This document shows, one piece after another, positions 7,207 to 23,395 of a stretch of 64,000 nucleotides of DNA; the first letter of the stretch is position 1, and each line of letters opens with the position of its first letter. Under the pieces are notes generated by a model. It searched no databases. It was not told where the DNA came from and saw nothing but the letters and a program-made list of their open reading frames with translations. The position numbers were made by a program, and so were the translations under genes. The stretch is taken from assembly GCF_011317445.1 (NCBI RefSeq), contig NZ_JAAAPL010000002.1:434001-498000 (forward strand). Reading direction: 5' to 3'. The stretch is from Chelativorans multitrophicus. GTDB taxonomy: Bacteria > Pseudomonadota > Alphaproteobacteria > Rhizobiales > Rhizobiaceae.

Positions 7207-7341
7207 ATGCACGAATGCGTTTGGTTCAAAATCGGCGTGAAGAGCCTCGCCGATTCCGAAATTGTCTGGGATGCCGTCTGCAAGGCGATCAAGAAGATCG
7301 CCGCCTTGCTGCGCGCCACGGTCTACCGGTTAAGATTATGA
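7207..7341 (+). pseudogene. Short orphan reading frame, possible gene remnant
   Basis: A 44-codon frame from ATG 7207 to TGA 7341 lies in the gap between convergent genes. It encodes an amphipathic helical segment (AVCKAIKKIAALLRATVYR) that looks protein-like, but there is no good ribosome binding site and I do not recognise the family. The 3' end overlaps the end of the creatininase-family gene by six bases. It may be the tail of a decayed gene or chance. A 7-bp stem (7284-7290 with 7296-7302) lies inside it, without a T tract. Confidence 0.2.
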
Positions 7342-8157
7342 ATTCGGCATGGCGTTGGGGGCAGAGCGCAGATCGGCCGGATCGCAGTTGCGGAAATGTT
7401 TTACGAACTCGGCGGCGAAGGAGATGATGTGCTCAGCAAAGGCCGCCCCGATCTCAGCGCTAGACAGCCGTGAGTTCCCGCCGATCAAGCCGTGCGGATT
7501 GACGTCAAGCGCGTCCAAGGGAACGGCCACCTCGCAGCCTTGGAACGATATTGCCGACAGGCCGACCGGCTCATGCCCGAAGGCCTTCGCGGCCTCGCTC
7601 GTTTTCTGAAGATCCGGTCGCATCAGCTCGGGAAAGTAATGCCAGTAGACCGAGGTGATCGGGTCGGCCCCATGGCCACCGGCGCGCTCGGCAAGATCCC
7701 CGTGCAGCCTCGTCCAGAGTTCGTGCGGTATGGCCTTCCAAATATTGATGGAGGGAATGATCAGGCCTGTACGGATCTTCAATTCGCGCACGGTCTGGTC
7801 GATCAGGCCCGCATTGCCGGTGTGACCGTTGAATAGCACGATCCGCCGCAATCCGTGATCCAGGAAGGCTGCAATCGTATCCTCCAGCAGCGCGCAGAAG
7901 GTCGCCGGCCGTAGCTGGATACCGCCTGCCATGCCTCGGAAGACATCGGCATAGCCGAACGGGATAGTAGGAGCGGCGATCGCTCCGGAGCGTTCGGCGA
8001 CGGCGGCCGCAAGACGTTCGGAGAGCATGAAATCGCCCATGGGCGCGTGCGGCCCCTGTTCCTCCTGGCTGCCGAGCGGAACGAGGATGACCGGGTCCTC
8101 CGCCATGCGCTCGCGAAATTCCACGAAGGTCATGTCCTTTAGCTGATGTTTCTTCAT
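7336..8157 (-). CDS. Creatininase-family amidohydrolase
   Basis: The 273-aa protein belongs to the creatininase family, metal-dependent enzymes that open cyclic or linear amides. The N-terminal metal motif reads GSQEEQGPH where the family usually has GSxEQHGPH, so one conserved His is Gln. The second motif FNGHTGN is intact, and GHGADP follows further on. The ATG overlaps the TGA of the preceding ATPase gene (ATGA at 8154-8157), so it is the last gene of the importer operon, suggesting that it acts on the imported compound (inference). The substrate is unknown. Confidence 0.85.
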   Translation of the reverse strand: MKKHQLKDMTFVEFRERMAEDPVILVPLGSQEEQGPHAPMGDFMLSERLAAAVAERSGAIAAPTIPFGYADVFRGMAGGIQLRPATFCALLEDTIAAFLDHGLRRIVLFNGHTGNAGLIDQTVRELKIRTGLIIPSINIWKAIPHELWTRLHGDLAERAGGHGADPITSVYWHYFPELMRPDLQKTSEAAKAFGHEPVGLSAISFQGCEVAVPLDALDVNPHGLIGGNSRLSSAEIGAAFAEHIISFAAEFVKHFRNCDPADLRSAPNAMPNS

Positions 8158-9140
8158 TGGCCGGCCAATAGCTCCAGGCTTGATTTGCGTGTTGGGGCGC
8201 CGCCGGGATTGAGGCAGGCATGGAGGTGATGCTTGGGCCCCGCCAGGACCGGAGTCCCGGCGGCGCAAGCGGGAAGCGCGAACGGGCAGCGCGGGCGGAA
8301 CGGGCAGCCTTCCTCCGCGACCTCGGTGCTGTCCACGTCGGCCTCCCACGACCAGTCGGGCTTCAGGCGGTCGTCCTCCGCCGAAACGGTTGGGATAGAG
8401 GCCAGGAGCTGCTGCGTATAGCGGTGGCGCGGCCCGGAAAACACGTCCGCGACGGCGCCTTCCTCGACCACCAGGCCGCGATACATCACGATCACGCGGC
8501 TGGCGAGCACGCGCACGACGCTCAGATCATGGGTGATGAAGAGATAGGTCAGGCCCAGCTCCTCCTGCAGGTCCTTTAGAAGCCGCAGGATATGTGCCTG
8601 CACGGAGACGTCGAGCGAGGAGGTGGGCTCGTCGAGCACCAGCAGCTCCGGGTCCGTTGCGAGCGCGCGGGCAATGGCCACGCGCTGCCGTTGCCCGCCC
8701 GAAAGAGCTAGCGGCCGCCGGTCCTGCAGCTCGGGATGAAGGCCTACCTTTTCCAGAAGCTCGCCGATCCGCCGGCGCCGTTCGGATCGGCGGCAGACAT
8801 TGTGGACCGAGAGCGGCAACCCGATCGCTTGGCCGATGGATTTGCGCGGGTTGAGCGTGGAGTAGGGATTCTGCTGCACGAGGCCGATCTGCCGGCGGTC
8901 CGCCTTCGAGCGCCGGCCGGACAATGGCCTGCCCGCCAGGACGATCTCGCCGGCGGATGGCTTCTCGATGCCCAGAATGAGGTTGGCGAGCGTCGTCTTG
9001 CCCGATCCGGATTCGCCGACAATGGCGACGGTCTCTCCCTTGCCGACCGATAGATTGACGCCCTTTAGAGCCTTCACCTCGGAGCTGCCGACGTGAAAGG
9101 TCTTCGCGGCCTCGCGTATCTGGAGCAGCGGCTCGCTCAT
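8154..9140 (-). CDS. Peptide-type ABC transporter ATPase, DppF-like
   Basis: This 328-aa ATPase of a dipeptide/oligopeptide-type importer has Walker A GESGSGKTT at residues 42-50, signature LSGGQRQRVAIARA, Walker B LLVLDEPTSSLD, and the C-terminal oligopeptide-transporter extension with CPFRPRCPF. The ATG at 9138-9140 overlaps the TGA of the DppD-like gene; an upstream in-frame start at 9233 lies inside that gene and was rejected. It probably forms a heterodimer with the product of 9137-10102. Confidence 0.93.
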   Translation of the reverse strand: MSEPLLQIREAAKTFHVGSSEVKALKGVNLSVGKGETVAIVGESGSGKTTLANLILGIEKPSAGEIVLAGRPLSGRRSKADRRQIGLVQQNPYSTLNPRKSIGQAIGLPLSVHNVCRRSERRRRIGELLEKVGLHPELQDRRPLALSGGQRQRVAIARALATDPELLVLDEPTSSLDVSVQAHILRLLKDLQEELGLTYLFITHDLSVVRVLASRVIVMYRGLVVEEGAVADVFSGPRHRYTQQLLASIPTVSAEDDRLKPDWSWEADVDSTEVAEEGCPFRPRCPFALPACAAGTPVLAGPKHHLHACLNPGGAPTRKSSLELLAGQ

Positions 9141-10102
9141 GCCGGGTTTACCTCGTGGATGCAGGCGACGCCGTGGCCGGCATGCCGCCACATGGGCACC
9201 GGAGCTTCGCATTCGGGCCGGGAGAACTGGCACCGCGGGCGGAAGGCACAGCCTTCGGTGAGCGCGGTGAGATCCGGCACCGAGCCTTCGATAGCCTCCG
9301 GGAGCCGGTCGGACGAAAGCCGCGGGACTGAGGCGAGCAGGGCGCGTGTATAGGGATGGCGAGGATTGGCGAAAAGCGCATCCGTCGGCGCACTCTCGAC
9401 GATCCGCCCCGCATACATTACGCAGACGCGGTCGGCGAATTTGCGGACGACGCCGAGATTGTGGGAGATGAACAGGATCGCCGTGCCGTAAGCCTGGGAG
9501 AGGTTGGCCATGATGTTCAGGGTCTGCTGCTGGACCGTCACGTCGAGCGCGGTGCCCGGCTCATCCGCGATCAACAGCTTCGGCCGGCTCGCCAGGGCCA
9601 TGGCGATCATGACACGCTGGTTGAGGCCGCCGCTCAGTTGGAAGCTGTAGCTGTCCAGAACGCGTTCGGGATCCGCAATGGAGACGTCCCGGAGGGCCGT
9701 GCGCATGCAGCTTTCCGCCTCGGCGGTGCTGAGCCGTCGGTCAAGACGCGTCAGAACGGCGGCGAATTGCTGCCGGATGGTGAAGACCGGGTTGAGAGCG
9801 GCCATCGGGTCCTGGAAAATCATGGTGATGTCGCGCCCCCGGCGGCCTTTGGCGCGGGCGGGAGATTCCTTGAGGACGTCGGAGCCGTCTAATTGCAGGT
9901 TGCCGCTGGTGCGGATGCGCCGCTGCGGCAATAGCCCCATGATCACACGTGCGGTTACGGATTTTCCGCTGCCGGATTCGCCAACCAGCGCCACGCGCTC
10001 GCCCGTTCCGACCGTCAGATCGACGCCACGCAGGACGCTGACCGGGCCGTCATGGGTCTCGAAGGTCAGTCTCAGGTCATCTATCCGCAGGAGATCTTCC
10101 AT
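9137..10102 (-). CDS. Peptide-type ABC transporter ATPase, DppD-like
   Basis: The first of two ATPases, 321 aa. Walker A GESGSGKS is at residues 41-48 and Walker B reads [12 protein letters not shown]. The signature is LSGGLNQRV, with Leu in place of the usual Gln or Met. The C-terminus carries the Cys-rich oligopeptide extension ([14 protein letters not shown]). Three bases separate it from the permease gene upstream. It pairs with the DppF-like subunit. Confidence 0.93.
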
Positions 10103-10105
10103 GTC

Positions 10106-10957
10106 TTATCCAACGATATCGAAGAGATCGCGCAGGCCGTCCGCGACCAGGTTGAACCCGAGGACGATCACGAAGATCGCGAGACCCGCGGTGATGGAAA
10201 GCCACCATAGGTCGGGAAGGTATTGGGAGCCTTCCGATACCATGGTGCCAAGGTCGGGGGTGGGCGGCGGAGCGCCCATGCCGAGAAAGCTGAGGCTGGC
10301 TCCGAGCAGGATCACGAAACCCATGTCCAAGCTCGCCTTGGTCAGCAGGTTGGGCGCACAGTTCGGCAGGAGCTCGCCAAACATCACCTTCAGGGGAGAG
10401 GCGCCCACAACTTCGGCAGCGGTCACGAAACCCTCGTGCCTCAGCGAGCGGACGATGCCGTAGACCAGCCGCGCGTGCCAGGGCCACCAGGCGACTGCCA
10501 TGGCGATCATTGCCAGCATCTGCGACGGCTGGGAGATGCCAAGGATGGCCATGGCCAGCACCAGCGAGGGTATGGCGAGGAAGATGTCGGTGACACGCAT
10601 CAGCACGCTCTCCACCTTGCCGCCGAGATAGGCCGCTACGAGCCCGACGATGGTGCCGAGGGAAATCGCCAGGGATACGACGACCGCTCCGAGCATCAGG
10701 GAGTTGCGGAAGCCGAAGATAATGCGGCTCAGCACGTCCCGGCCCACGCTGTCCGTGCCAAGCCAATACTTCGCGCTCGGCGGCTTGTTTGCGTCGGCGA
10801 AGTTCACCACCACGCCGGCATGCTCTGGGTAGGGCGCCACATAGGGAGCGAAGAGGGCGCAAAATAGCACGAGCGCGATGAGCGCCGCCCCAAACACCGA
10901 CAAGCGGTTGCGGGCGAAGCGGCGCCATCCGCGCCATCTGGGATCAGCCTTGCTCAT
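10106..10957 (-). CDS. Peptide-type ABC transporter permease, DppC-like
   Basis: This 283-aa inner-membrane subunit has about six hydrophobic segments. It carries the DppC-type motif WLGTDSVGRDVLSR after the first membrane span and an EAA-like loop (AEVVGASPLKVMFGELLPN). The ATG overlaps the stop of the DppB-like gene (ATGA at 10954-10957). It forms the membrane channel with the DppB-like subunit. Confidence 0.93.
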   Translation of the reverse strand: MSKADPRWRGWRRFARNRLSVFGAALIALVLFCALFAPYVAPYPEHAGVVVNFADANKPPSAKYWLGTDSVGRDVLSRIIFGFRNSLMLGAVVVSLAISLGTIVGLVAAYLGGKVESVLMRVTDIFLAIPSLVLAMAILGISQPSQMLAMIAMAVAWWPWHARLVYGIVRSLRHEGFVTAAEVVGASPLKVMFGELLPNCAPNLLTKASLDMGFVILLGASLSFLGMGAPPPTPDLGTMVSEGSQYLPDLWWLSITAGLAIFVIVLGFNLVADGLRDLFDIVG

Positions 10958-11967
10958 GAGGCCTTCAACCTGATCTTGGGGTCGATAAAGGAGACGATCG
11001 TGTCGATGATCATATTGATCAGCACGAAGAAGACCGAAATCAGCATGACCACGGCGATCACCGCGTTAAGATCCTTGCGCATAATGGCATTGACGCCGTA
11101 TTTCGCCATTCCGGGCCAATGGAAGATCGTCTCGACGATGAAGGCGTTGCCGAGCAGCGCGACGATCTGCATGCCCAGGATCATCAAGGTCGGGATGATG
11201 GCCGGCCGCAGCGCCCATTTGAGCGCGATCGAGCTTTCAGCCAAGCCGTAAGCCCGCGCGAACTCGACAAAAGGCCGATCGTAGCTATCGACCATGTTGG
11301 TGCGGGTGAGGCGCGAGATCTGCGCCAGGCCAGGGAGGGAAAGGGCCACCGCCGGCAGCACGATATGGGCAAGCGCGTCACGGAAAACCTGCCACTGGCC
11401 CGCCAACAGGGCATCGACCGTGTACAGCCCGGTGACGGCCGGCGGCGCCGTCAGGCTTTCCGACAGCCTGCCCGTGAGCGGCAGGAGACCGAGCCAGAAG
11501 GAAAGAAGCAGCATCAGGAAAAGGGCCCAGACAAAATTGGGCAGAGCCACGGCCAGCAAAGAGAGGATACGCGCAGCATTGTCCGGCCAGCGGTCCTTGA
11601 AGTGGGCGCTGGCAATTCCCATCGCGCCGCCGATCAACGTCATGGCGACGCCAGCGAAGATCACTAGCTCCAGCGTGGCAGGGAAGGTGGCGGCAACGTC
11701 CTGCGAAACGGGATTGTCGGTATAGAGCGACCTGCCAAAATCGAAGTTCAGCGCACCCTTCATGAAGCGTATGTACTGCTCGGCGATGGGCCGGTCGAAG
11801 CCCATCTGCTGGCGCATGGCCTCCACCTGTTCCGCGCTCGCCTCCGGCCCCAGTGCAAGGCGCGCCGGGTCGCCCGGAATGACACGCGCGAGTAGGAACA
11901 TCAGTACGGAAACGCCGATGACGACGATGATGCCGCTCATCAGCCGGTTGAAGAGAAAGCGCGTCAT
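10954..11967 (-). CDS. Peptide-type ABC transporter permease, DppB-like
   Basis: This is a 337-aa inner-membrane permease with a typical start (MTRFLFNRLMSGIIVVIG). The FLLARVIPGDPARLALG segment after the first span and the FVEFARAYGLAE loop are classic DppB features. An in-frame upstream start at 12042 would add a charged leader without family support. It is separated by 308 bases from the binding-protein gene upstream in the same operon, a gap that holds a GC-rich hairpin. Confidence 0.92.
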   Translation of the reverse strand: MTRFLFNRLMSGIIVVIGVSVLMFLLARVIPGDPARLALGPEASAEQVEAMRQQMGFDRPIAEQYIRFMKGALNFDFGRSLYTDNPVSQDVAATFPATLELVIFAGVAMTLIGGAMGIASAHFKDRWPDNAARILSLLAVALPNFVWALFLMLLLSFWLGLLPLTGRLSESLTAPPAVTGLYTVDALLAGQWQVFRDALAHIVLPAVALSLPGLAQISRLTRTNMVDSYDRPFVEFARAYGLAESSIALKWALRPAIIPTLMILGMQIVALLGNAFIVETIFHWPGMAKYGVNAIMRKDLNAVIAVVMLISVFFVLINMIIDTIVSFIDPKIRLKAS

Positions 11968-12275
11968 ACCGAGGGCCCTTTTTCCACTAGGGAGGGCAGG
12001 GGTGCGCCGGGCTCGATCGTGCGCTGCTTTGATTCGAAACAATCCGGGTGACCTGGAGGCGAAATGTACCGCGCCCCAGTTTCCCCGATCGAATTCTGCT
12101 TTGATGACGTCAACTTCCCTGACCAGTCGCTCGTATGTTGAAGATGGCGGTTGGAACGCTCCGATCGAAATGTCGGCGTGGCTCCGGCTTTCGCCGGAGC
12201 GCTAGCCGAGCCGCGCCGAAACGGATTTGCCGGACCGAAACAGGCAAGGAGATTTCCATGCCTGCCCGTCGCCGG
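11968..12275 (-). other. 308-base gap between importer binding-protein and permease genes
   Basis: No coding sequence is supported here. The only clear structure is an 8-bp perfect stem at 12181-12200. Short plus-strand frames in the region have no family resemblance. The gap separates the binding-protein gene from the rest of its operon. Confidence 0.5.
12181..12200 (-). terminator. GC-rich hairpin between binding-protein and permease genes
   Basis: GCTCCGGC (12181-12188) pairs perfectly with GCCGGAGC (12193-12200) around a TTTC loop. There is no T tract on the minus strand, so it is a weak terminator at best. Similar stems after binding-protein genes often stabilise the upstream mRNA and lower permease expression. 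Confidence 0.4.
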
Positions 12276-13898
12276 TCAAACATCCATTGTCATCCTGTCG
12301 TACCGGTAATTGCCGGCCATGATCGGAATGGACTGCTTCGGGTCTTCGAAGCCCGGCACATGCAGGTTTTCCCGGAATGCCACGAGATCGATGGCCTGGT
12401 AAAGGAAGACCGACGGATACTCGTCCGCGATCACGCGCGCCAGCTCCTTGTAAAGCTCGTGACGCGCCGCGGGATCGGTGGTTTGGCGGCCCTTTTCGAG
12501 CGCGGCATCGATTTCCGGTTTTTGCAGCCAGTGCATGGAAAGATAGGTGCCTGCCGCCGAGCTGTGATATTCGGCCCACAGCATGGAGTCCACGTCCGTT
12601 GTCGAAAGAGAGGTCGCCACACAGGCAAGGTGGGGCGTCGCTTCGGGACTGGTGGCCATTTCCACGATCTGAGGCCACGGGGCGGAGGTGATATTCACCT
12701 TCATTCCGAGCTCGGCCAGATTGGCCTGCAGCAGGAGCGCGAACTTCTCCTGCAGCGCTACCGACTTGAACCAAACGAGATTGAGCTCCAAGGGCTGATC
12801 GGCATATTTGGACTCGGCGAGTGCGGCCTTTGCCGCCTCGATATCGCGCTTGATCAGGGGTACACCGGGATCATAACCCATGACATCCGCCGGGATCGGG
12901 CCGCGGATCGGCGTACCCTGCTGCTGGCCGGCCACATCAAGAAGCGCGTAAAGCTGGTCATAGTCGAAGGCAAGCGCGATCGCTTTCCTGACATTCACGT
13001 CATCGAGCGGCGCCTTCTGCGTGTTCATCTTGAAGTGAAAGATGGTGGGCTTGCGGTCTTGGCCGATAGAAATGCCGTCCGACTGCGAAAGCGCGGCGAC
13101 AATCTCCGGCGGCAGCGGCAGGCGCGTAAGGTCGATCTCGCCTCGCGGCATGAGCTGGCGCACGGTCACGGCCTCGACGCCGAATTTCGAGCGCACCACC
13201 TCGGGCGGATTGGGCGCAAAGCCCGCGAAATAATCGGGATTGATCTCCATCACCGTTTCGTTCTGGGAATCATGCCTGGCGATTTTGTATGGTCCGCTGC
13301 CGGCGTCGTTGCTGCTCAGGAATGCCTCGCCGTAGTCACCGAACTCCCCGAATTCGCCGTCCTTCAGATTGGCCGTCACGAGCTTTTTGTTGACTATAGC
13401 AAGGCGCACCAGCGCTGCAAGGAAGGGTGAAAACGGCTCGCGCAGCCGGAAGATAACCTTGTTGCCATCCTGCTCGGCTTTCTCGACAGCGGCCAAGAGG
13501 AACGAGAAGCCACGCTTCATCGTGATCATGCGGTTGGCGGAGAAGACAACATCCTCGGCCGTCAGCGGCGAACCGTCATGGAACTTGATGCCGTCGCGAA
13601 TGGTGAAGGCGTAGACCTTGCCGTCCTCCGAAATCTCCCAGGATTCCGCCACGGAAGGCTCAATCTCTCCACCGGGCGCTGGACGCACCAGAAAGTCGTA
13701 AAGATTGAACATGAGGATGGAGCCCGGAAAGTCCACGGGCTTGTGCGGGTCGGCCTGACCGATATTGCCGTCGGCCAGACGCAGCGTTCGCTTATCGGCG
13801 GCTGCCGCGAAGGGCATCGTCGGCCCGACGCCGAACGTTATGCCGGCCGACGCCGTTCCGGCCAGAAGTTGCCTGCGCGTGAGCATGAAATTCGACAT
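12276..13898 (-). CDS. Peptide-type ABC transporter binding protein, Tat-type signal
   Basis: This 540-aa solute-binding protein of family 5 (DppA/OppA-like) is exported. The N-terminus MSNFMLTRRQLLAGTAS has a twin-arginine pattern (TRRQLL) followed by a hydrophobic stretch and a likely AAA cleavage site, so it is probably folded before export. Family features include the VAESWEISEDGKVYAFTIRDGIKFHDGSPLTAEDV region. GGGGAA lies just upstream of the chosen ATG at 13896-13898. It is the first gene of the importer operon and diverges from the AroM-LuxR regulator gene. The ligand is unknown; a peptide-like or aminopolycarboxylate compound fits the neighbours. Confidence 0.92.
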   Translation of the reverse strand: MSNFMLTRRQLLAGTASAGITFGVGPTMPFAAAADKRTLRLADGNIGQADPHKPVDFPGSILMFNLYDFLVRPAPGGEIEPSVAESWEISEDGKVYAFTIRDGIKFHDGSPLTAEDVVFSANRMITMKRGFSFLLAAVEKAEQDGNKVIFRLREPFSPFLAALVRLAIVNKKLVTANLKDGEFGEFGDYGEAFLSSNDAGSGPYKIARHDSQNETVMEINPDYFAGFAPNPPEVVRSKFGVEAVTVRQLMPRGEIDLTRLPLPPEIVAALSQSDGISIGQDRKPTIFHFKMNTQKAPLDDVNVRKAIALAFDYDQLYALLDVAGQQQGTPIRGPIPADVMGYDPGVPLIKRDIEAAKAALAESKYADQPLELNLVWFKSVALQEKFALLLQANLAELGMKVNITSAPWPQIVEMATSPEATPHLACVATSLSTTDVDSMLWAEYHSSAAGTYLSMHWLQKPEIDAALEKGRQTTDPAARHELYKELARVIADEYPSVFLYQAIDLVAFRENLHVPGFEDPKQSIPIMAGNYRYDRMTMDV

Positions 13899-14064
13899 TC
13901 CTGTTCCCCTTCTCAAGCTAGAATCGCCGGCATTAAGGAAGCAAGTCTCGCCTTGGAGCGGGGCGCCGCTTCCGGCTGCCTTTTATGGCTTCGTCGGGCG
14001 CGCCGGTTCTCCAGGGCACCTGCCTCGATCCTGCAAGCTTATCAAGCCAGTGTGGGCCTAAGAA

Positions 14065-14080
14065 TACGTGGCAGCACTTA
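14065..14080. promoter_or_regulatory. Imperfect 16-bp dyad in the importer/regulator divergent region
   Basis: TACGTGGCAGCACTTA at 14065-14080 matches 13 of 16 positions of the perfect palindrome at 15148-15163. It sits 166 bases before the binding-protein gene and 101 bases before the AroM-LuxR gene, so it could control both. The AroM-LuxR protein is the obvious candidate ligand (inference). Confidence 0.5.
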
Positions 14081-14181
14081 CAGCCGGCATTCGTTGGCAC
14101 GATGGACGAGGCCTGGGCAATGTCTATACTCGGGCGAAAGCAATGATGCCAAGAGAGGCTAAATGGAGTGTCCGGCCCGGA

Positions 14182-15129
14182 ATGTCGTTTGATGGCATGA
14201 AAAAGCGAGTCTGCTTCATAACGCTCGGCCAGTCACCGCGGCCGGAGCTTATCTCGGAGGTGCTGGAGCATATTCGCGAACCGATCGACTACACGGAAAT
14301 CGGCGCGCTGGACGGCCTTTCGGACGGTGAGATCGAGCCGCCGCGTTCGCTGCGCGATACGCCTCTCGTGACGCGGCTGGCCAGCGGCGAACAGGTCGTC
14401 GTCTCTTCGGAGTTTATCAACAGGCGGCTGGATATCGTGACCGCCCAGATCGACCGGCTGGGGCACGATCTGCTTGTGCTGCTCGCCAGCGGCATCTTCC
14501 GCAAATTCGAGACGTCCACCCCACTCATCCACGGCCAACTGGCGGTGGATGAATGGATCGCCTCCTTCATCCTCGGCACGGCACAGCTTGGCGTCGTTTT
14601 TCCCCTACGGAAACAAGCCTCCGATCCGGTGACGCTCCATGACTACGGCATCCTCATCCAGAACTACCAGACCGTGGCCTATTCCGGCGAGGCAAGCCGC
14701 ATCGACGAGACGGCGCTCCTGCTCAGGGATGTCGATTTCATCCTGATGCATTCGGTCGGGTACACCAAGGAGATGGCCCAGCAGTTGGCGAGCGAATCGC
14801 ACAAGCCGGTGGTCACGGCCAGACGTGTCATCGCCGGGGCCCTCCACCTGCGGCTTATGGAAATGGGCAGCACGGCCCATCACAGCTTTGCTCAGGCGAG
14901 CGAGCTCGACCTGATAAAGCGTCTGCCGCGGCCGGAAGAACCGCTTACCGGCCGCGAGCAGGAAGTGCTTTCGCTCGTGCTCGAAGGCCGTTCCAATAAG
15001 GAAATCGCCAAACAGCTCGGGATCAGCCACCGGACGGTTGAGATCCACCGGTCACGCGCCATGGCGAAATACAACGCGACGACGGCAATGCAGCTCATCC
15101 GCCGCGCCATGATCGAGAATCCGGGCTAG
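14182..15129 (+). CDS. AroM-domain / LuxR-type HTH fusion regulator
   Basis: This is a 315-aa protein with two parts. Residues about 6-230 resemble the AroM family: the ITLGQSPRPE start, the IGALDGLSDGEI segment and LLVLLASGIF; this is a poorly characterised domain I expect to bind a small molecule. Residues about 254-312 form a LuxR/GerE helix-turn-helix (LTGREQEVLSLVLEG, SNKEIAKQLGIS, RTVEIHRSRAMAK). A one-protein ligand-sensing transcription factor is the simplest reading. It lies between a divergent importer operon and a monooxygenase operon, and related dyads lie upstream of both. ATG 14182 has GGAG 13 bases upstream; ATG 14197 is an equally good start. Confidence 0.85.
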   Translation: MSFDGMKKRVCFITLGQSPRPELISEVLEHIREPIDYTEIGALDGLSDGEIEPPRSLRDTPLVTRLASGEQVVVSSEFINRRLDIVTAQIDRLGHDLLVLLASGIFRKFETSTPLIHGQLAVDEWIASFILGTAQLGVVFPLRKQASDPVTLHDYGILIQNYQTVAYSGEASRIDETALLLRDVDFILMHSVGYTKEMAQQLASESHKPVVTARRVIAGALHLRLMEMGSTAHHSFAQASELDLIKRLPRPEEPLTGREQEVLSLVLEGRSNKEIAKQLGISHRTVEIHRSRAMAKYNATTAMQLIRRAMIENPG

Positions 15130-15147: not shown

Positions 15148-15163
15148 TACGTGCCGGCACGTA
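15148..15163. promoter_or_regulatory. Perfect 16-bp palindrome upstream of the monooxygenase operon
   Basis: TACGTGCCGGCACGTA is a perfect dyad with no loop, 66 bases upstream of the monooxygenase start and 18 bases after the AroM-LuxR stop. Its size suits a LuxR-type dimer site, and a related copy (13 of 16) lies in front of the importer and regulator genes. TTTT follows directly, but a loopless palindrome is not a good terminator. Confidence 0.6.
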
Positions 15164-15229
15164 TTTTGCGGCAGGTGGCTTTCATCTACGCTTTGGCAAC
15201 TCCGCAAAGATCCACCCAAGGGAGGTGTC

Positions 15230-16600
15230 ATGAGGAAAGCGGGCGAACAGATGAAGCTCGGGGCGTTTCTGACCGCGACCGGCCAGCATATAGCCGCCTG
15301 GCGTCATCCCGACGTGAAGGCCGACGCCGGCGTCGATCTCCAGGAATACATCCGGGTGGTGAAGATCGCCGAGCGCGGCAAGTTCGACATGATGTTCCTC
15401 GCCGACAATGCGGGCATTTGGAGCCGCGAGCTGGAGTCCGACGGACGCAGCTCGCGCGCAGCCTATTTCGAGCCGATCACGCTGCTTTCGGCGCTCGCAG
15501 CGGTCACGGAGCGGATCGGGCTTGTCGCGACGGCTACCGCGACCTTCAACGAGCCTTACAACGTGGCGCGTAAATATGCCTCGCTCGACCATCTGAGCGG
15601 GGGCAGGGCGGGCTGGAACCTTGTCACTTCGGCGAACGAGGCCGAGGCTTACAATTTCGGCTTCGACGTTCACCTGGCGCATGCGGACCGCTATGCACGG
15701 GCGCGCGAGTTTGCCGAAATCGTCATCGGCCTGTGGGACAGCTGGGAAGATGACGCGCTGATCCTCGACAAGGAGGGCGGGCGCTTCTTCGATCCGCAAA
15801 AGCTCCACATGCTCAACCACAAGGGTGAGCGGTTCTCCGTCCGAGGCCCACTCAACGTGCCGCGCACGCCACAGGGCCGCCCCATCATCGTGCAGGCGGG
15901 CTCCTCCGACGCGGGCATGGATCTCGCCGCCTGGTGCGCCGACGTTGTCTTCACCGCGCAGCCGGCCCTCTCCGACGGAATCACCTTCTATAGGGAACTG
16001 AAGGAGCGGGTGCGGAAGGCAGGCCGCTCGCCCGACGATCTGAAAATCATGCCTGGCCTTTCGCCTGTCGTCGGCCGGACGCGGGAAGAGGCGCAAGCGA
16101 AGTTCCAGGAACTGCAGGACCTCATCGATCCCGTCGTCGGCCTCGGCCTCCTGTCGTCCATGGCCGGCCACGATCTTTCCGGCTATCCGATCGACGGACC
16201 CTTCCCGGACTTGCCGGACAACAATACCGGAAAGGGCCGGCTGAAGGTGCTGAAGGACACGGCCGCTCGAGAGAACATGACGATCCGCCAGCTCTATACA
16301 AGGATCGCCGGGACGCGCGGGCACAATCTCGTCATCGGCACGGCGGAGGACATCGCCGACCAGATGGAAGAATGGTTCACCTCCGAAGCCGCCGACGGCT
16401 TCAATATCATGCCGCAAGCGCTGCCGGGCAGCCTCTCCGACTTTGTCGACTTCGTCATCCCCGAACTCCAGCGGCGGGGTCTTTTCCGCAGGGAGTACGA
16501 AGGCAGCACGCTGCGTGAGCATTTGGGCTTGTCGTGGCCGCATACGCGCCACGTGCTCGCCCGCGATGGCCGAAACGCAAAGCCCGATGCGGCGGAATAG
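15230..16600 (+). CDS. FMNH2-dependent monooxygenase, NtaA/SnaA/DszA (EmoA-like) family
   Basis: This 456-aa LLM-class monooxygenase uses reduced FMN from a separate reductase to oxidise its substrate, in this family often by N-dealkylation or C-S cleavage. Family signatures are FDMMFLADNAG, YASLDHLSGGRAGWNLVTS, VRGPLNVPRTPQGRPIIVQAGSS and the C-terminal FRREYEGSTLREHLGL. It is a paralogue of EmoA at 40162. GGGAGG lies 5 bases before the ATG. The matching FMN reductase follows 85 bases downstream, as with emoA-emoB. An aminocarboxylate substrate is inferred; methionine- or sulfone-type substrates are alternatives. Confidence 0.92.
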   Translation: MRKAGEQMKLGAFLTATGQHIAAWRHPDVKADAGVDLQEYIRVVKIAERGKFDMMFLADNAGIWSRELESDGRSSRAAYFEPITLLSALAAVTERIGLVATATATFNEPYNVARKYASLDHLSGGRAGWNLVTSANEAEAYNFGFDVHLAHADRYARAREFAEIVIGLWDSWEDDALILDKEGGRFFDPQKLHMLNHKGERFSVRGPLNVPRTPQGRPIIVQAGSSDAGMDLAAWCADVVFTAQPALSDGITFYRELKERVRKAGRSPDDLKIMPGLSPVVGRTREEAQAKFQELQDLIDPVVGLGLLSSMAGHDLSGYPIDGPFPDLPDNNTGKGRLKVLKDTAARENMTIRQLYTRIAGTRGHNLVIGTAEDIADQMEEWFTSEAADGFNIMPQALPGSLSDFVDFVIPELQRRGLFRREYEGSTLREHLGLSWPHTRHVLARDGRNAKPDAAE

Positions 16601-16685: not shown

Positions 16686-17258
16686 TTGACAAGAAAGATC
16701 ATCGGTCTGGCGGGAAGCATACGCCGGCCTTCCAAGACACGGGCGCTCGTAACCAGCCTTGTCGCCGAAACGGCGCGCCAATGCGGCGGCGCGAACGCCG
16801 TTTACGACGTGCTCGATCTTATGCCGGATCTCGGCACCTGCCTCTTCCGCTCGGACGCATCACCGAAACTCGAGCGGATCCTGCAGGAAATCGAGTCGGC
16901 CGACGCGCTCATCGTCGCAAGCCCCGTCTACAAAGGCTCCTATGGGGGCCTTTTCAAGCACCTGATCGACCTTCTCGATCCCAACAGCCTTCTGGAAAGG
17001 CCGGTCCTGATCGCCGCCACCGGCGGCGGCCAGCGGCACGCGCTAATGGTGGAGCATCAGATGCGGCCGCTCTTCGGGTTTTTCGGCGCCTCCAGCGTGC
17101 CGCTTGCGGTCTATGCGTCGGATACGGACTTCAAGGACGGCGAGCTGACGGATGAGCCGACGAGGCAGAGATGCGTGATGGCCTGCCGGCAGCTCTCGAG
17201 CCTCATCAAGCATCGTATCCCCTTTGAAACAGACCCGGCAGAGAAGCGCTGGGCGTAG
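16686..17258 (+). CDS. NAD(P)H:FMN reductase (SsuE/EmoB-like), TTG start
   Basis: This 190-aa flavodoxin-fold reductase supplies FMNH2 to the monooxygenase encoded just upstream. The FMN-phosphate loop GSIRRPSKTR is near residue 10, followed by SPVYKGSYGGLFKHLIDLL and TGGGQRHALMVEHQMRPLFGFFGA, all typical of the SsuE/MsuE group. The start is a TTG with AAGGAA about 9 bases upstream; no ATG is available before the conserved loop. It is a paralogue of EmoB at 41567. Confidence 0.9.
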   Translation: MTRKIIGLAGSIRRPSKTRALVTSLVAETARQCGGANAVYDVLDLMPDLGTCLFRSDASPKLERILQEIESADALIVASPVYKGSYGGLFKHLIDLLDPNSLLERPVLIAATGGGQRHALMVEHQMRPLFGFFGASSVPLAVYASDTDFKDGELTDEPTRQRCVMACRQLSSLIKHRIPFETDPAEKRWA

Positions 17259-17281: not shown

Positions 17282-18838
17282 ATGTACCGATTGGGAATCG
17301 ATGTCGGAGGGACGAACACGGACGCGGTCATCATGGCCGGCCGGTCCGTCCTTGCGGGCGTGAAGGCTGCAACCACCGAGGATGTCACGAGCGGCGTGAT
17401 CGAGGCGATGGAGGCGGCTATCTCCAAGGCCTCCGTCGAGCGCTCGAAAATAACCCATGTGATGATCGGCACGACGCATTTCACCAATGCAGTGATCGAG
17501 CGTAAGCACGTCAATCCGGTGGCGGCGATCCGTCTCGGCCTGCCGGCCACCGCCTGCCTGCCGCCTATGGTGGACTGGCCGGCGGATCTGCGCGAGACCG
17601 TCGGCGGGCACCGGTACCTGGTGCGCGGCGGCTACGAATTTGACGGCCGCGAGATCGCGCCGCTCGACACGGACGAGCTTGACCGGATCGCTGCGGACAT
17701 TCGCGCCAAGGACCTGACGGCCGCGGCGATCACCTCCGTCTTCAGCCCGATCAACGCCGCGATGGAGACCGCCGCACGCGAGCACCTCATGAAGCGCTGT
17801 CCCGGCCTGCGCGTGGTTGTCTCCAGAGATATCGGCCGCATTGGCCTGCTCGAACGCGAAAGCGCGGCTATCATGAACGCCAGCCTGCTCGAGCTCAGCG
17901 GCCGCACGGTCGATGCCTTCGGAAGGGCGCTCCAGGCGGCAGGACTCAACTGCCCCTTCTTCATCACCCAGAACGACGGCACGCTCATGGGCGCTGATGT
18001 CGTGCGGGAATTCCCGGTCCTTACCTTCGCATCCGGTCCCACCAATTCTATGCGCGGGGCAGCCTTCCTAACAGGGGAAAGCGATGCCATCGTCGTCGAT
18101 ATCGGCGGGACGACCACGGACATCGGGGCTATCCAGCGCGGCTTCCCGCGCCAGGCATCGACGGTGGTCGATATCGGCGGTGTACGCACGAATTTCCGCA
18201 TGCCTGACGTTTTCTCCATCGGGTTGGGCGGGGGCTCGCTCGTCCAAGGGACAAGCGATGCAGTGAGCGTCGGGCCGCAATCCGTCGGCTATCGCATCAC
18301 GAAGGAGGCGCTGGTGTTCGGCGGCGGAACGCTGACGGCGACCGATATCGCCGTCGCGGCCGGCCGGGCATCGATCGGCAATCCCGCAGCGGTCGCCTCG
18401 CTTTCCGGCGAACTCGTAGACGAGGCTCTGGCCGAGATCGTGCGGATGCTGGAACGAGGCGTGGAGCGCAGCCGCATCTCGCCCGAGCCGATACCAGTGG
18501 TCGCGGTGGGTGGCGGCTCCATCCTCATGCCGGAGAGGCTCGGCGACCTGCGCGTAATCCGTCCGGAGAACTTCGCCGTCGCTAACGCGGTGGGGGCTGC
18601 GATCGCGCAGGTGAGCGGCGAGGTGGACCGCATCTTCTCGCTCGCCAACGGGCTTACCCGCGAGACCTGCCTGAAACAGGCGGAGGAGGAAGCGCGCGAG
18701 AAGGCGATGCGCTCCGGCGCCGCGCCGGCGACGATAACCGTCATCGAACGCGAGGACGTGCCGCTCGCGTATCTTCCCGGCAATGCCACCCGCATCCATG
18801 TGAAGGTGGTCGGCGAGATGGACGGCGTACATGCTTGA
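17282..18838 (+). CDS. Hydantoinase/oxoprolinase-family ATPase (HyuA-like)
   Basis: This 518-aa protein has the ASKHA nucleotide-binding fold of HyuA and 5-oxoprolinase alpha parts, which use ATP to open cyclic amides such as hydantoins. The phosphate loops are GIDVGGTNTD (residues 5-14) and VVDIGGTTTDIG, and VAVGGGSILMP lies later. It has only the HyuA half; no HyuB gene is near. Instead, two DUF917 genes follow, the first overlapping it by 8 bases, a pairing that suggests one complex or pathway. AGGA precedes the ATG. The substrate is unknown; an ATP-driven lactam or cyclic imide opening is plausible. Confidence 0.88.
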   Translation: MYRLGIDVGGTNTDAVIMAGRSVLAGVKAATTEDVTSGVIEAMEAAISKASVERSKITHVMIGTTHFTNAVIERKHVNPVAAIRLGLPATACLPPMVDWPADLRETVGGHRYLVRGGYEFDGREIAPLDTDELDRIAADIRAKDLTAAAITSVFSPINAAMETAAREHLMKRCPGLRVVVSRDIGRIGLLERESAAIMNASLLELSGRTVDAFGRALQAAGLNCPFFITQNDGTLMGADVVREFPVLTFASGPTNSMRGAAFLTGESDAIVVDIGGTTTDIGAIQRGFPRQASTVVDIGGVRTNFRMPDVFSIGLGGGSLVQGTSDAVSVGPQSVGYRITKEALVFGGGTLTATDIAVAAGRASIGNPAAVASLSGELVDEALAEIVRMLERGVERSRISPEPIPVVAVGGGSILMPERLGDLRVIRPENFAVANAVGAAIAQVSGEVDRIFSLANGLTRETCLKQAEEEAREKAMRSGAAPATITVIEREDVPLAYLPGNATRIHVKVVGEMDGVHA

Positions 18839-19949
18839 ACGCACGAGCGGCTTTCTTCTCGACGAGCGGCAGATTGATGCGCTGGAGATCGGCGCCGCGA
18901 TCCTGGGGACCGGCGGCGGCGGCAATCCCTATATCGGCAAGCTGCGCGCCCGCGAGGCGCTGCGGCAGGGCTTCAAGATGCAGATTGTGCCGCTCGAGAC
19001 CCTTCCCGACGACGCCGTCGTCGTTTCCGTGGGCGGCATCGGCGCGCCGCTCGTCTCGCATGAGCGGATCAAGGAGGGGAAGGAAGGGCTCAGGTGCATC
19101 CGTGCGCTGGAAGAGCGGCTCGGCGTTTCCATCGATGCCGTCGCCTGCGAGGAGATCGGCGGGCAGAATGCGATGGAACCGCTGATCACCGCTTCCGCGG
19201 CCGGGCTCCCGGTCGTCGATTGCGACGGGATGGGGCGCGCGTTCCCCGAGATGCAGATGACGACCTACTCAATCTACGGCCATCGATCGACGCCGAGCGT
19301 AATGTGCGACCTGCACGGCAATGTGGTGATCTTTGAGCACGCGATCTCGGAAAAGTGGCACGAGACCATGGCGCGGGCCTGCGTCGTGGCCCAGGGCGGT
19401 GCGTCGACGCTTGCAAGCGCGCCGATGTCGGGAAAGTTCCTGAAGCAGTTCGCCATCCCCGGCTCTTACAGCCGGGCCATGGCACTCGGCGAAGCCGTCA
19501 TGACGGCGCGGCGCGCGCATGCTGATCCGATCTGCGCCATATGCGAGAGCGAAAATGGGAGAATGGTCTTCCGGGGGAAGATCGCCGATGTCAGCCGTAC
19601 GATCGCCGGCGGCTTCGTGAGAGGCAAGGTGCACCTTACCGGCTTCGATCAGTACGAGGGAGACGAGGGCTCGGTTCTCATCCAGAACGAAAACCTCGTG
19701 TTTCTGCGCAATGGCGCGGTCGAAGTGGTCGTTCCCGACCTCATCGTGATTCTCGACGTGGATAGCGGCGAGGCCATCACCACCGAGATGCTTCGCTATG
19801 GCCAGCGCGTGGCCGTTCTCGCCCTTCCATGCCACCCGTTGCTCCGCTCCGACGCGGCGCTGGAGGTGGTCGGACCCAAGGGATTCGGCCTTGAAGGGAT
19901 CGATTACAGGCCAATGTGCGAGCAGGAACGGGAGAGGGTGGCTCGATGA
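18831..19949 (+). CDS. S-Me-THD/DUF917-family protein, copy 1
   Basis: This 372-aa protein is of the DUF917 family (now linked to S-methyl-thiohydantoin desulfurase-type domains). A GTGGGG loop is at residues 26-31, and VDCDGMGRAFPEMQM and YGHRSTP lie near the middle. The ATG overlaps the HyuA-like gene by 8 bases. It is clearly paralogous to the next gene, with the same landmarks throughout. Together with the ATPase it probably processes a cyclic hydantoin-like or lactam intermediate (inference). The exact reaction is not known to me. Confidence 0.85.
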   Translation: MLERTSGFLLDERQIDALEIGAAILGTGGGGNPYIGKLRAREALRQGFKMQIVPLETLPDDAVVVSVGGIGAPLVSHERIKEGKEGLRCIRALEERLGVSIDAVACEEIGGQNAMEPLITASAAGLPVVDCDGMGRAFPEMQMTTYSIYGHRSTPSVMCDLHGNVVIFEHAISEKWHETMARACVVAQGGASTLASAPMSGKFLKQFAIPGSYSRAMALGEAVMTARRAHADPICAICESENGRMVFRGKIADVSRTIAGGFVRGKVHLTGFDQYEGDEGSVLIQNENLVFLRNGAVEVVVPDLIVILDVDSGEAITTEMLRYGQRVAVLALPCHPLLRSDAALEVVGPKGFGLEGIDYRPMCEQERERVAR

Positions 19950-21031
19950 CATCATTCCAGGTGATGCCGCAGGACATGGAAGCGATCGCGACGGGCGGTG
20001 CGTTTCTCGGCACGGGCGGCGGTGGAGACCCGTATATCGGCAAGCTGATGGCGCAGTCCGTGATGGCGGAGAAGGGGCCGGTGACGGTGATTTCGCCCGA
20101 CGACGTCGAGGACGACTGGCTTTGCCTGCCAGTGTGCATGATGGGCGCGCCGACCGTAATGGTGGAGAAGCTACCCAACGGATCGGAGGCCGGTTTCGCC
20201 CTGGCGCAGCTCGAGGCCTTTCTCGGGCGCAGGGCCGACGCGCTGATCTGCATCGAGGCCGGCGGGCTCAACTCGACAATTCCCTTCGCCGTCGCCTCCG
20301 CCACCGGCCTGCCGCTGATCGACGGCGACGGGATGGGCCGGGCCTTTCCGGAACTGCAAATGGTGTCCTTCACCATGCACGGCGTCTCGGCAACGCCCAT
20401 GGTGCTGGCCGACGACAAGGGCAACAGCTCCATCATCAACGCGATCTCCAACCGCTGGACGGAGCGTCTCGCCCGATGCCAGACCGTGGAAATGGGGGGA
20501 GCGGCCCTGGTGGCGCTCTACCCGATGAGCGGGGCAGAGGTGAAGCGCGGCATCCTTCGCCACACCCTGTCGCTTATCAAGGAGATCGGCGAGACGATAT
20601 CGGCGGAGCGGAATGCACACCGCAATCCCGCAGAGGCGCTGATCAGGCGTCTTGGCGGCAAGCGCCTGTTTTCCGGCCGGGTCGCCGATATAGACCGGCG
20701 GACCGTAGGCGGATTTGCGCGCGGGCAGGCGCTATTCAAGGGAATGGAAGCGGACGAGGGGAAGAGCTTCCGCGTCGATTTCCAGAACGAATTCCTGATT
20801 TGCCGAGGCGACGATGGCGCCCCGATGGCGATAACGCCCGACCTGATCTGTGCGCTCGACGCCGACGGAGGCCTTCCGGTGACCACGGAGCAGCTCCGCT
20901 ACGGCCTGGCCGTGACGATGATCGGCCTGCCCTGCGACGAGCAGTGGCGGACGCCGGCCGGGCTCGATCTCGTGGGTCCCGCCTATTTCGGCTACGATCA
21001 CGAATACGCGCCGTTACACAGCCTGTCCTGA
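19946..21031 (+). CDS. S-Me-THD/DUF917-family protein, copy 2
   Basis: This 361-aa paralogue of the preceding protein starts at the ATGA overlap at 19946. It shares GTGGGGDPYIGK (residues 22-33) and DGDGMGRAFPELQM, but has diverged widely elsewhere, with an added segment around HRNPAEALIRRLGGKRLFSGRV. Two diverged copies kept side by side suggest a heteromer or two consecutive steps rather than a recent duplication. The last base of the stop is followed within 10 bases by a GC hairpin. Confidence 0.85.
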   Translation: MTSFQVMPQDMEAIATGGAFLGTGGGGDPYIGKLMAQSVMAEKGPVTVISPDDVEDDWLCLPVCMMGAPTVMVEKLPNGSEAGFALAQLEAFLGRRADALICIEAGGLNSTIPFAVASATGLPLIDGDGMGRAFPELQMVSFTMHGVSATPMVLADDKGNSSIINAISNRWTERLARCQTVEMGGAALVALYPMSGAEVKRGILRHTLSLIKEIGETISAERNAHRNPAEALIRRLGGKRLFSGRVADIDRRTVGGFARGQALFKGMEADEGKSFRVDFQNEFLICRGDDGAPMAITPDLICALDADGGLPVTTEQLRYGLAVTMIGLPCDEQWRTPAGLDLVGPAYFGYDHEYAPLHSLS

Positions 21032-21222: not shown

Positions 21223-22167
21223 ATGAACCTCAGAAGCATCCCCGTGGCGCAGCTCTTGGAGTTGCTGGCGGTGGTCCGGTGTGGCAGCATCAATCGGGCC
21301 GCTCAGGAGCTGAACACCACCCAGCCTACGCTGACCAGAAGCATCAAAAGGCTGGAGGACCGGCTGAGGGTGCCTCTGCTTCAACGAACCGCACATGGCG
21401 TGACGCCATCCGAATACACCAAAGCGATGCTCCCTTTCCTCCAGAGCATCGAGAGCGACTTCAGGAAAGCCTTGGCGGAAATTGAGGCTGCCACCGGAGC
21501 CGGCGCGGGCAAGATCTGCATCGGCTCGACGGCCATGGTGGCAAACAAGATCGTCCCGCAGGTGCTTGCCCGGTTTGTCCCGCGCTGGCCGCATCTGACC
21601 ATCGAATTCGTCGAGGACCGCAAACCCGCCCTGCTCGAAGGATTGCGGAGCGGCAAATACGATTTCGTCATGGCCCTTATGAGCCCCGAGGAGCAGGCGC
21701 GGGACATCCTGCAGCAGGAACTCTTCACCGACACGCTCGTGGTCATTGCCCGCCCGGGCCATCCTCTTACCAAGCTTTCGTCCCTGTCCGTGCGCGATAT
21801 CGTCCAGTGCAAATGGATCCTGCCTACGGAGGGGCTCGACCTGCGCAGCCGCCTGGAGAATTTCTTCCGCAACGAAGGACACGACGTGCCGGCGTTCCCG
21901 GTCGAAACGACGCTCTTCACAGCGATCGTCGCTCTTGTGAAGAGCACCGACCGGATCTCCGCGATTCCATCCGTGGTCGTAAGGGACGAACTGCTCAGCG
22001 GCGAGCTTGTAGCGCTGCGCGGCCCTTGGAACTTCATCCACCGCTCGTTCAGCGCCTATTTCAGGCGCGGGCATACGCTCTCTCCTTCCGCCCGCGAGCT
22101 GTTCCGGGAAACCCGCCGATATATTACCGAACTCGGCGTCAACGTTCAGAAGGCGGCTGCCGAATAG
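21223..22167 (+). CDS. LysR-family transcriptional regulator
   Basis: The 314-aa protein has the LysR winged HTH at the N-terminus (LLELLAVVRCGSINRAAQELNTTQPTLTRSIKRLEDRL, about residues 8-46), followed by a type-2 periplasmic-binding effector domain. A GAGGAGG ribosome binding site precedes the ATG. It lies on the same strand as, and between, the DUF917 operon and the dipeptidase/Tct operon; it may activate the latter (inference). No clear T-N11-A site was picked out in the 190 bases upstream. Confidence 0.93.
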   Translation: MNLRSIPVAQLLELLAVVRCGSINRAAQELNTTQPTLTRSIKRLEDRLRVPLLQRTAHGVTPSEYTKAMLPFLQSIESDFRKALAEIEAATGAGAGKICIGSTAMVANKIVPQVLARFVPRWPHLTIEFVEDRKPALLEGLRSGKYDFVMALMSPEEQARDILQQELFTDTLVVIARPGHPLTKLSSLSVRDIVQCKWILPTEGLDLRSRLENFFRNEGHDVPAFPVETTLFTAIVALVKSTDRISAIPSVVVRDELLSGELVALRGPWNFIHRSFSAYFRRGHTLSPSARELFRETRRYITELGVNVQKAAAE

Positions 22168-22321
22168 GTCAGAGGGCACTTCTGCTGCGCTAATGGAGGA
22201 TGGCTATACACTTCAGGCATAACCCCGTGCCTCAATGCATTGGCGAAATGCTCCAGCTTGGAGTGAACTCCAATATGGGTTCCGGTCGGAATTCGAGATG
22301 CAGCAGCCGCAAGAGGGAGTG

Positions 22322-23395
22322 ATGTCGTACTACGAATTGTCCGCCGATGAGGATTTGAACATCCTTAGACTGCATGAAAAGGCGATTGTGTTCGACGGTG
22401 CCTTCCCGATGCTCGGCTTCTACAAGGCGCCTGAGGAGGAAATCGACGCTTTCCTTAAGGGCGGCGTGACGGGCGGGAACGCGACGCTCTCTTCCGACGA
22501 GACCGATTTCTCCGGCGCGATCGCGAATTTCCGCAACCTGAAGGCTCTCATTTCGCGCAATAGCGATCGGATGGCCCTTTGCACCCGTGCGGCCGATATC
22601 GAGCGTTGCAAGCGGGACGGCAAGATTGGCATGGTTCCCTTCTTCCAGAATCCCAAGCCGATTGCCGACCGGCTGGCCGATCTGGAGATTTTCTACGAGC
22701 TGGGCCTGCGCGTATTCCAGATGACATACAACAATCTGGGCTTCATCGGCGCCGGCTGTTGCGAGCGCAACGATCCGGGGCTGAGCAATTTCGGCATCGA
22801 GGTGGTGAGCAAATGCAACGAGCTCGGCATTCTGCTAGACATCTCCCATTGCGGGCCGGCGACATCCTGGGACACGCTGAAGTTTTCCAAGGCGCCCGTG
22901 GTCGCCAGCCATTCGGGTGCATATGCCCTTGCGCGCGCCTTCGGGCGCAATAAGCCCGACGACATGTTAAAGGCGGTGGCTGACACGGGTGGACTGGCAG
23001 GCATTCCCTTCTTCCCCTGCCTCGTGAAGAGAGATCCGGAGACGCATGTCGTGCAGCCCTCCACCGTCGAGGACGTCATCGACCATATCGACCACGCCGT
23101 CGAGATCATGGGCATAGACCATGTTGGAATTGCTTCCGACATGTCCTCCCATCTGGCGCGTACCCTGGAGCTTACGCGAGACTCGGTGCTGCGCACCACG
23201 CGACTGCGTCATCCGGAGGTTTTCGGCGTCGGGCCTACCGATCGCTACGATCCTTATCCGGCAGGTTTAGACAGCCATGCCAAAATGCTGAACCTCAGCC
23301 GCGGGCTCCACAAACGCGGCTATGCCGAAGGCGATATCATAAAGATACTCGGGGGGAACTGGATGCGCGTCTACAGCGCAGTGTGGAAGGACTAG
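22322..23395 (+). CDS. Peptidase M19 (membrane dipeptidase) family protein lacking zinc ligands
   Basis: This 357-aa TIM-barrel protein of the M19 family normally hydrolyses dipeptides with two zinc ions. It retains YNNLGFIGAGC, LDISHCG and ASHSGA, and the C-terminal GGNWMRV. The usual DGHND motif near the start reads DGAFPM, so the His and Asp ligands are absent, and the bridging-Glu region reads PFFQNP. Other M19-like proteins share such changes, so it may be a separate clade with a different reaction. The chosen ATG has GAGGGAG about 5 bases upstream; a start at 22235 is possible. It precedes a Tct transporter operon. Confidence 0.85.
   Translation: MSYYELSADEDLNILRLHEKAIVFDGAFPMLGFYKAPEEEIDAFLKGGVTGGNATLSSDETDFSGAIANFRNLKALISRNSDRMALCTRAADIERCKRDGKIGMVPFFQNPKPIADRLADLEIFYELGLRVFQMTYNNLGFIGAGCCERNDPGLSNFGIEVVSKCNELGILLDISHCGPATSWDTLKFSKAPVVASHSGAYALARAFGRNKPDDMLKAVADTGGLAGIPFFPCLVKRDPETHVVQPSTVEDVIDHIDHAVEIMGIDHVGIASDMSSHLARTLELTRDSVLRTTRLRHPEVFGVGPTDRYDPYPAGLDSHAKMLNLSRGLHKRGYAEGDIIKILGGNWMRVYSAVWKD

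Follow-up and report, generated by a model that had tools for sequence, protein, structure and literature searches.

The fusion protein P0001 is probably a one-component, ligand-responsive transcriptional activator, built from an AroM domain without its racemase-type cysteines and a FixJ/LuxR-type helix-turn-helix (HTH); we infer ligand binding, DNA binding and activation from its sequence and that of its relatives. The protein is encoded in a stretch of 64,000 nucleotides from Chelativorans multitrophicus, referred to here as the window, between a divergent operon for a peptide-type ABC importer and a downstream operon headed by a flavin-dependent monooxygenase. The coordinates of the features discussed are collected in Table 1, and related loci are identified by L numbers.

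P0001 is read as a single open frame of 315 amino acids (14182–15129, forward strand), and profile searches bore out the sequence-only reading that an AroM domain and a GerE/LuxR HTH are combined within it. The N terminus was assigned to AroM (PF07302, E=3.7e-36) with 125.1 bits against a cut-off of 23.8, and the C-terminal part to GerE (PF00196) with 67.3 bits against a cut-off of 23.5, so that by Pfam the protein belongs to the AroM family and carries a LuxR/FixJ-type domain. Among PDB sequences, FixJ gave the best match to the HTH (1x3u, E=1.7e-9). Among the Pfam hits at E≤0.01 there was neither a receiver domain, the mark of two-component response regulators, nor an autoinducer-binding domain, the mark of quorum-sensing LuxR proteins, and the NCBIfam response-regulator matches on P0001 covered the HTH part only.

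Full-length alignment was made with three relatives, of which the nearest named one is from Chelativorans sp. J32 (L002, 94% identical); the other two are more distant (L003, 69%; L004, 68%). The frame of P0001 stays open upstream as far as a GTG at 14068. Because the relatives begin with MEKR (L003 and L004) or MPGMKKR (L002), the true start of P0001 is taken to be 14182 or 14197. Purifying selection acts on the AroM part of the fusion, with dN/dS values of 0.12, 0.26 and 0.08 in three pairs. A profile search of the window genome returned P0001 as its one PF07302 match.

Table 1. Features of the P0001 locus, with positions numbered from the first nucleotide of the window
Feature	Position	Strand	Remarks
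Creatininase-family amidohydrolase	7336..8163	-	Adjoins importer genes, same strand; PF02633 E=1.5e-47
Peptide-type ABC importer: two ATPases, two permeases, SBP_bac_5 binding protein	8154..13916	-	Divergent from regulator; Pfam
-10-like TAAGCT	14036..14041	-	23 nt from operator 1, towards importer operon
Putative operator 1	14065..14080		Imperfect palindrome, 11/12 defined positions; between importer and regulator; also in L002
Promoter-like TGGACG-16-TATACT, possible regulator promoter	14103..14130	+	Consensus match only
AroM-LuxR fusion P0001, putative regulator	14182..15129	+	315 aa; alternative start 14197
AroM (racemase-like) domain, putative sensor, residues 11-219	14212..14838	+	PF07302 E=3.7e-36; profile to 2eq5 E=0.0048
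Ala102 codon, position of first racemase-type Cys	14485..14487	+	Cys 41/48 standalone, 0/30 fused
Ser191 codon, position of second racemase-type Cys	14752..14754	+	Cys 48/48 standalone, 0/30 fused
GerE/LuxR DNA-binding domain, residues 254-309	14941..15108	+	PF00196 E=9.3e-19; 1x3u E=1.7e-9
Putative operator 2	15148..15163		Perfect palindrome; between regulator and monooxygenase gene; also in L002, L003, L004
-10-like TACGCT	15187..15192	+	23 nt from operator 2, towards monooxygenase operon
NtaA/DmoA-family FMN-dependent monooxygenase	15230..16600	+	TIGR03860 E=9.7e-180
MsuE-type FMN reductase	16686..17258	+	TIGR03566 E=4.6e-76
HydA-type hydantoinase/oxoprolinase-like protein	17282..18838	+	PF05378, PF01968
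DUF917 (S-Me-THD) protein 1	18831..19949	+	PF06032, PF20906
DUF917 (S-Me-THD) protein 2	19946..21031	+	PF06032, PF20906

Census and phylogeny of fused and standalone AroM domains

AroM domains were gathered from genome samples of the window's order, phylum, family and class, in which 20 of 397, 14 of 398, 23 of 394 and 15 of 367 genomes, respectively, had a match to PF07302; each figure includes the window's own genome, and the samples overlap. A search for related loci starting from the window and a set of plasmid records served as further sources. Entry into the census required a match by our own AroM profile at E≤1e-6, and proteins with more than 50 residues beyond the AroM part were classed as fused. 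Domains were counted after removal of duplicates with identical sequence and of hits below 150 bits (12 rows, including a divergent group of ~260 amino acids). When full-length P0001 was used as the query in the order, HTH-only matches dominated, and that search did not contribute to the counts.

Of the distinct AroM domains in the census, 30 were fused and 48 were standalone. The domain search proposed in the sequence-only reading as a way of counting AroM–HTH fusions thus yields 30 distinct proteins at 29 loci, all of them alphaproteobacterial as judged from named organisms or, failing a name, from the kinship label of the window's class. Both PF07302 and PF00196 were matched in 30 of 30 fusions at E≤1e-5, and phmmer found no HTH in the 48 standalone AroMs. 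In the phylum sample, the 13 genomes other than the window's own in which PF07302 was matched all gave standalone AroMs, and plasmid hits in Niallia, Salinigranum and Paenibacillus matched the AroM part alone. In database records the fusions are named "AroM family protein" (Shinella, Ketogulonicigenium) or "hypothetical protein" (Neorhizobium).

In a tree built from 215 columns, the 30 fusions form one side of a branch with support of 100/97. Of the next 16 standalones to join them, 15 come from fusion loci and the other is L071, with weak support (81/60). The wider group that also takes in the standalone of L144 is supported at 96/88, and the one that takes in that of L143 as well at 99/93. 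The standalone AroMs of three fusion loci (L129, L141 and L142) sit on a distant branch, and several long branches (L129, L143, L124 and L153) leave the details unsure. Duplication of AroM beside the operon is therefore the simplest account of how the fusion arose, but it is not proven.

Two further arrangements were seen among the loci. In L143 (genome G1429), two different AroM–LuxR fusions and a standalone AroM surround one importer operon. Members of the divergent group of ~260 amino acids occur in four genomes as opposite-strand pairs 4–5 kb apart (L045/L057, L046/L058, L047/L056 and L048/L059); the two members scanned, L045 and L057, gave Pfam AroM matches of 57 and 44 bits.

Racemase-type cysteines in AroM proteins

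P0001 lacks the pair of racemase-type cysteines that most standalone AroMs have, two catalytic cysteines being a mark of the Asp/Glu/hydantoin racemase superfamily, and has Ala102 and Ser191 in their places. This holds for the fusions as a group: none of the 30 has Cys at the first position (22 Ser, 3 Ala, 3 Thr and 2 Met) or at the second (28 Ser and 2 Ala), whereas the first Cys is present in 41 and the second in all of the 48 standalones. Both cysteines are kept in the 21 standalone AroMs that lie within fusion loci, and the seven standalones without the first Cys, none of which is in a fusion locus, retain the second. Those seven (L062–L065 and L067–L069, from the same phylum and with the family label f92) have Ser at the first position; they might resemble enterobacterial AroM, and this subgroup may catalyse a reaction other than racemisation.

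The domain was compared at 21 positions with a conservation of 85% or more among the standalones. Eight of these (G16, P19, R20, G41, L43, D44, G104 and G137) show the same residue in every one of the 30 fusions. Besides the cysteines, two are nearly lost: P168 is present in all 48 standalones and in one of 30 fusions, and I15 in 44 of 48 standalones and three of 30 fusions, the others having mostly Val, Leu or Ala there.

Profile comparisons gave signs of a possible kinship with racemases. A profile of AroM proteins matched the hydantoin racemase 2eq5 weakly (E=0.0048), with both AroM Cys positions falling on cysteines that we take to be the catalytic pair of that enzyme. One standalone AroM matched PF01177 at E=1.8e-6, which is below the family cut-off, whereas hhalign of A2 against one PF01177 protein aligned no more than 26 columns, around the first Cys position. 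Structure prediction, also proposed at the outset, gave poor models: AlphaFold returned a pLDDT of 54 for the full protein and 52 for the AroM part (four sequences each), a Foldseek search with the latter found nothing at E≤0.001, and no structural claim rests on these low-confidence models. Viral contigs, searched for additional homologues that could be used in the modelling, yielded none. The window genome has two PF01177 matches (G000:C1:1214310-1214930 and C1:279993-280598), on a contig other than the window's.

The distribution of the cysteines, absent from all 30 fusions and present in 41 and 48 of the 48 standalones, argues that the fused AroM domain has very probably lost its activity as an enzyme and taken on the role of a sensor, and a conserved pocket without the cysteines is what an enzyme-derived sensor should look like. 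The losses map to one branch, and the 30 fusions are not independent; because they form one group on the tree, the loss may have been a single event. The family as a whole still has the look of enzymes. The suggestion in the sequence-only reading that AroM proteins at large are sensors was not supported by this comparison, and we reject a general sensor family on the Cys pattern: the standalones keep the cysteines and the fusions keep neither, so that the fused copy appears to be an exception derived from an enzyme. For P0001 itself the suggestion fared better, and its AroM part very probably does sense a small molecule on behalf of the importer and monooxygenase operons on either side, at whose promoter-like positions matching putative operators are found.

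A fused domain that still catalyses, with Ser or another residue replacing Cys, and reports flux to the HTH as a trigger enzyme would be in keeping with the serines at the second position in 28 and at the first in 22 of the 30 fusions. It is nevertheless highly improbable, with Cys at either position in 0 of 30 fusions and Ala102 in the window's own protein, and we know of no racemase activity in Cys-less members of the Asp/Glu/hydantoin racemase superfamily.

Candidate operators, promoter-like elements and gene neighbourhood

The dyads to which attention had been drawn at 14065 and 15148 are both present and turn out to be two copies of one 16-bp candidate operator, TACGTG-N4-CACGTA. The first (14065–14080) reads TACGTGGCAGCACTTA and the second (15148–15163) reads TACGTGCCGGCACGTA. 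With at most one mismatch, the motif occurs at these two sites only in the 64 kb (mean 0.01 in 100 shuffles, none of which had two), and with two mismatches there are 4 matches in the window versus 0.73 in shuffles. Both sites are shared by L002, and in L003 and L004 the site after the regulator is found without mismatch and the site beside the importer with two.

More distant fusions have either TACGTG-N4-CACGTA (class A) or TAGGGG-N4-CCCCTA (class B) at the same places. When both consensuses were searched within 300 bp upstream and 200 bp downstream, sites matching at least 10 of the 12 defined positions were found to flank 25 of the 30 fusions (shuffles: mean 0.59, maximum 3), a count that is partly circular, as the class B consensus was read from the same loci; that of class A was taken from the window. 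The sites lie upstream in 23, downstream in 16 and on both sides in 14 of the 25, and five of the 30 fusions have no operator at this threshold. Class A, at 10 to 12 of 12 positions, occurs in six fusions beyond the window's close clade (L132, L141, L142, L151, L145 and L146). A count of TA-ended 16-mers with at least 7 of 8 pairs is weaker than the two-class count and not circular; these were present at 6 of 30 fusions (shuffles: mean 0.11, maximum 2).

Sites at 10 or more of 12 positions also lie upstream of 12 of the 21 standalone AroMs in fusion loci, most of these being the same sites as were counted downstream of a fusion, versus 0 of the 27 standalones elsewhere. This last figure, together with the recurrence of operators and of a fixed promoter spacing alongside the fusion, argues against an HTH without a regulatory role at this locus, which we regard as the least probable reading of all. 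Among the 25 fusions with an operator (the five without one at this threshold being left out), the recognition-helix motif ends with Arg in all 10 of class A and with some other residue in all 15 of class B. The tree has a single class switch, which amounts to one independent pair, and for that reason the apparent tracking of operator class by this residue is a lead only and carries no statistical claim.

In the window, each operator is followed at the same distance by a −10-like element directed at the neighbouring operon: TAAGCT lies 23 nt beyond TAAGTGCTGCCACGTA on the importer side, and TACGCT lies 23 nt beyond TACGTGCCGGCACGTA on the side of the monooxygenase gene. Across the loci, TANNNT stands 23–24 nt past the site, on the side facing away from the regulator, at 34 of the 39 sites with at least 10 of 12 matches (2000 letter-shuffled tails: mean 1.1, maximum 7) and at 39 of 48 with at least 9 of 12 (19/22 and 20/26), this spacing having been read off the same loci before counting. 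In the direction of the regulator, TANNNT was found at this distance at 0 of 23 sites. If TANNNT is the −10 element, the operator would be centred near −44, and class II activators bind near −44. Since the element points to the neighbouring operons and not to the regulator, this geometry suggests a class II-like activator.

Repressors are common among catabolic one-component regulators, and palindromic operators on both sides of the gene are also what would be expected of a fusion that occupies its operators until released by ligand. Such a repressor is unlikely here, however. A site upstream of the −10 element at this spacing is typical of activators, and it is there, with 23–24 nt between, that 34 of 39 sites are placed; by eye, no consistent −35 was noticed in the listed promoters.

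As for the genes concerned, DUF917 and HydA proteins are encoded within 8 kb of the fusion in 28 of the 29 loci, SBP5 in 26, both permeases in 23 and a standalone AroM in 20; in L129, neither DUF917 nor HydA was found within 8 kb by these queries. DUF917 is divergent from and adjacent to 23 of the 30 fusions. Both DUF917 and HydA are present as well in four mapped stretches that have a standalone AroM and no fusion (L147–L150), and the neighbourhood therefore belongs to AroM at large. The NCBIfam models for thiohydantoin and S-methyl thiohydantoin desulfurases (DUF917) scored far below their cut-offs on both DUF917 proteins of the window. In the Shinella locus (L151), an OPT transporter, a PF01177 racemase and an M20 aminoacylase are encoded nearby, with the PF01177 protein at the place held by AroM in many other loci. 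Importer, hydantoinase-like proteins, racemase and aminoacylase, taken by their family names, together point to a hydantoin-like compound or a cyclic amide as the substrate.

That a standalone AroM is encoded less than 8 kb from the fusion at 20 of the 29 loci could also mean that the AroM part of the fusion serves mainly to bind the neighbouring AroM enzyme, with the regulator sensing that enzyme and not a free ligand. This is quite improbable: nine of the 29 loci have no standalone AroM within 8 kb, and a second PF07302 match is absent from the window genome.

Two other groups of genes were noted in the window. After the DUF917 genes and in the same orientation come genes for a LysR-type regulator and a protein of the M19 membrane-dipeptidase family (21223–23395), as they do in L002, and translations inspected by eye at 276–1592 and 26464–27726 look like DadA-type FAD amino-acid dehydrogenases.

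Proposed mechanism and relation to known systems

In the mechanism proposed here, a copy of a racemase-like AroM gene would have been joined to a FixJ/LuxR-type DNA-binding domain and the fused AroM would have lost both racemase-type cysteines, in an order of steps that we infer. The Cys-less pocket would bind, without converting it, a compound that is imported and degraded by the products of the neighbouring operons. This ligand is probably either a substrate, be it hydantoin-like, another small cyclic amide or derived from a peptide, or else an intermediate. Bound ligand would alter dimerisation or the accessibility of the HTH, and P0001 dimers would then occupy the 16-bp operators at about −44, recruiting RNA polymerase to the importer operon from operator 1 and to the monooxygenase/FMN reductase/HydA/DUF917 operon from operator 2.

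A wider proposal is held only tentatively, at a little short of an even chance. The AroM–LuxR proteins may form an undescribed activator family that originated once, within the Alphaproteobacteria, when a pathway racemase was duplicated next to the operon to which it belongs, and in which the dead copy would sense the substrate or product of the live enzyme and two operator dialects would be linked to one recognition-helix residue. Since the window genome has no standalone AroM, sensing of the substrate of AroM cannot hold literally there.

Several known systems share parts of this arrangement. By profile, P0001 belongs to the family of E. coli AroM (PF07302), of which the 48 standalones lack an HTH and all have the second Cys. 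Its HTH is shared with FixJ/NarL-type LuxR regulators (FixJ, 1x3u, being the best match), from which P0001 differs in having AroM as its input and no receiver. The NarL operator is a 7-2-7 inverted repeat, and the 16-bp operator of the P0001 locus fits such a repeat. With the hydantoin and Asp/Glu racemases (PF01177), the AroM Cys positions align with cysteines of 2eq5, and it is these two residues that the fused AroM lacks.

The closest precedent is BzdR, which in the portions of its description available to us (PMC3602430) consists of a DNA-binding domain and a shikimate-kinase-like domain without enzyme activity and controls catabolic genes. Its authors report that the domain had to lose its enzyme activity in order to become regulatory (PMC3602430). 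Like BzdR so described, P0001 joins an HTH to an enzyme-like effector domain that appears, by sequence, to be without catalytic residues. The two differ in that BzdR is presented there as a repressor with a shikimate kinase fold and an N-terminal DNA-binding domain (PMC3602430), whereas P0001 has a racemase-like domain, a C-terminal FixJ-type HTH, a presumed role as activator and, in the fusion loci, often a standalone paralogue nearby.

No AroM–LuxR regulator was named in the titles or abstract openings of the open-access papers retrieved by our searches, which is weak evidence of absence; in parts of that literature, "AROM" also denotes the fungal pentafunctional enzyme. The standalone AroM proteins are described as uncharacterised in PMC11055893. 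Enzyme-derived regulators are already known, and what appears to be new, as far as our searches show, is the racemase-like input, the FixJ-type HTH, the two-site activator-like geometry and the frequent Cys-bearing paralogue. For proteins now recorded as "AroM family protein" or "hypothetical protein", the proposal supplies a mechanism and testable candidate operators, and it argues that the standalone AroM proteins are enzymes of the same pathway. The fusions would be a naturally occurring example of an enzyme that became a sensor, and in 20 of 29 loci a Cys-bearing AroM is no more than 8 kb away. They would also help in finding the substrate of the DUF917/HydA operons, for which any inducer of the regulator would be a candidate.
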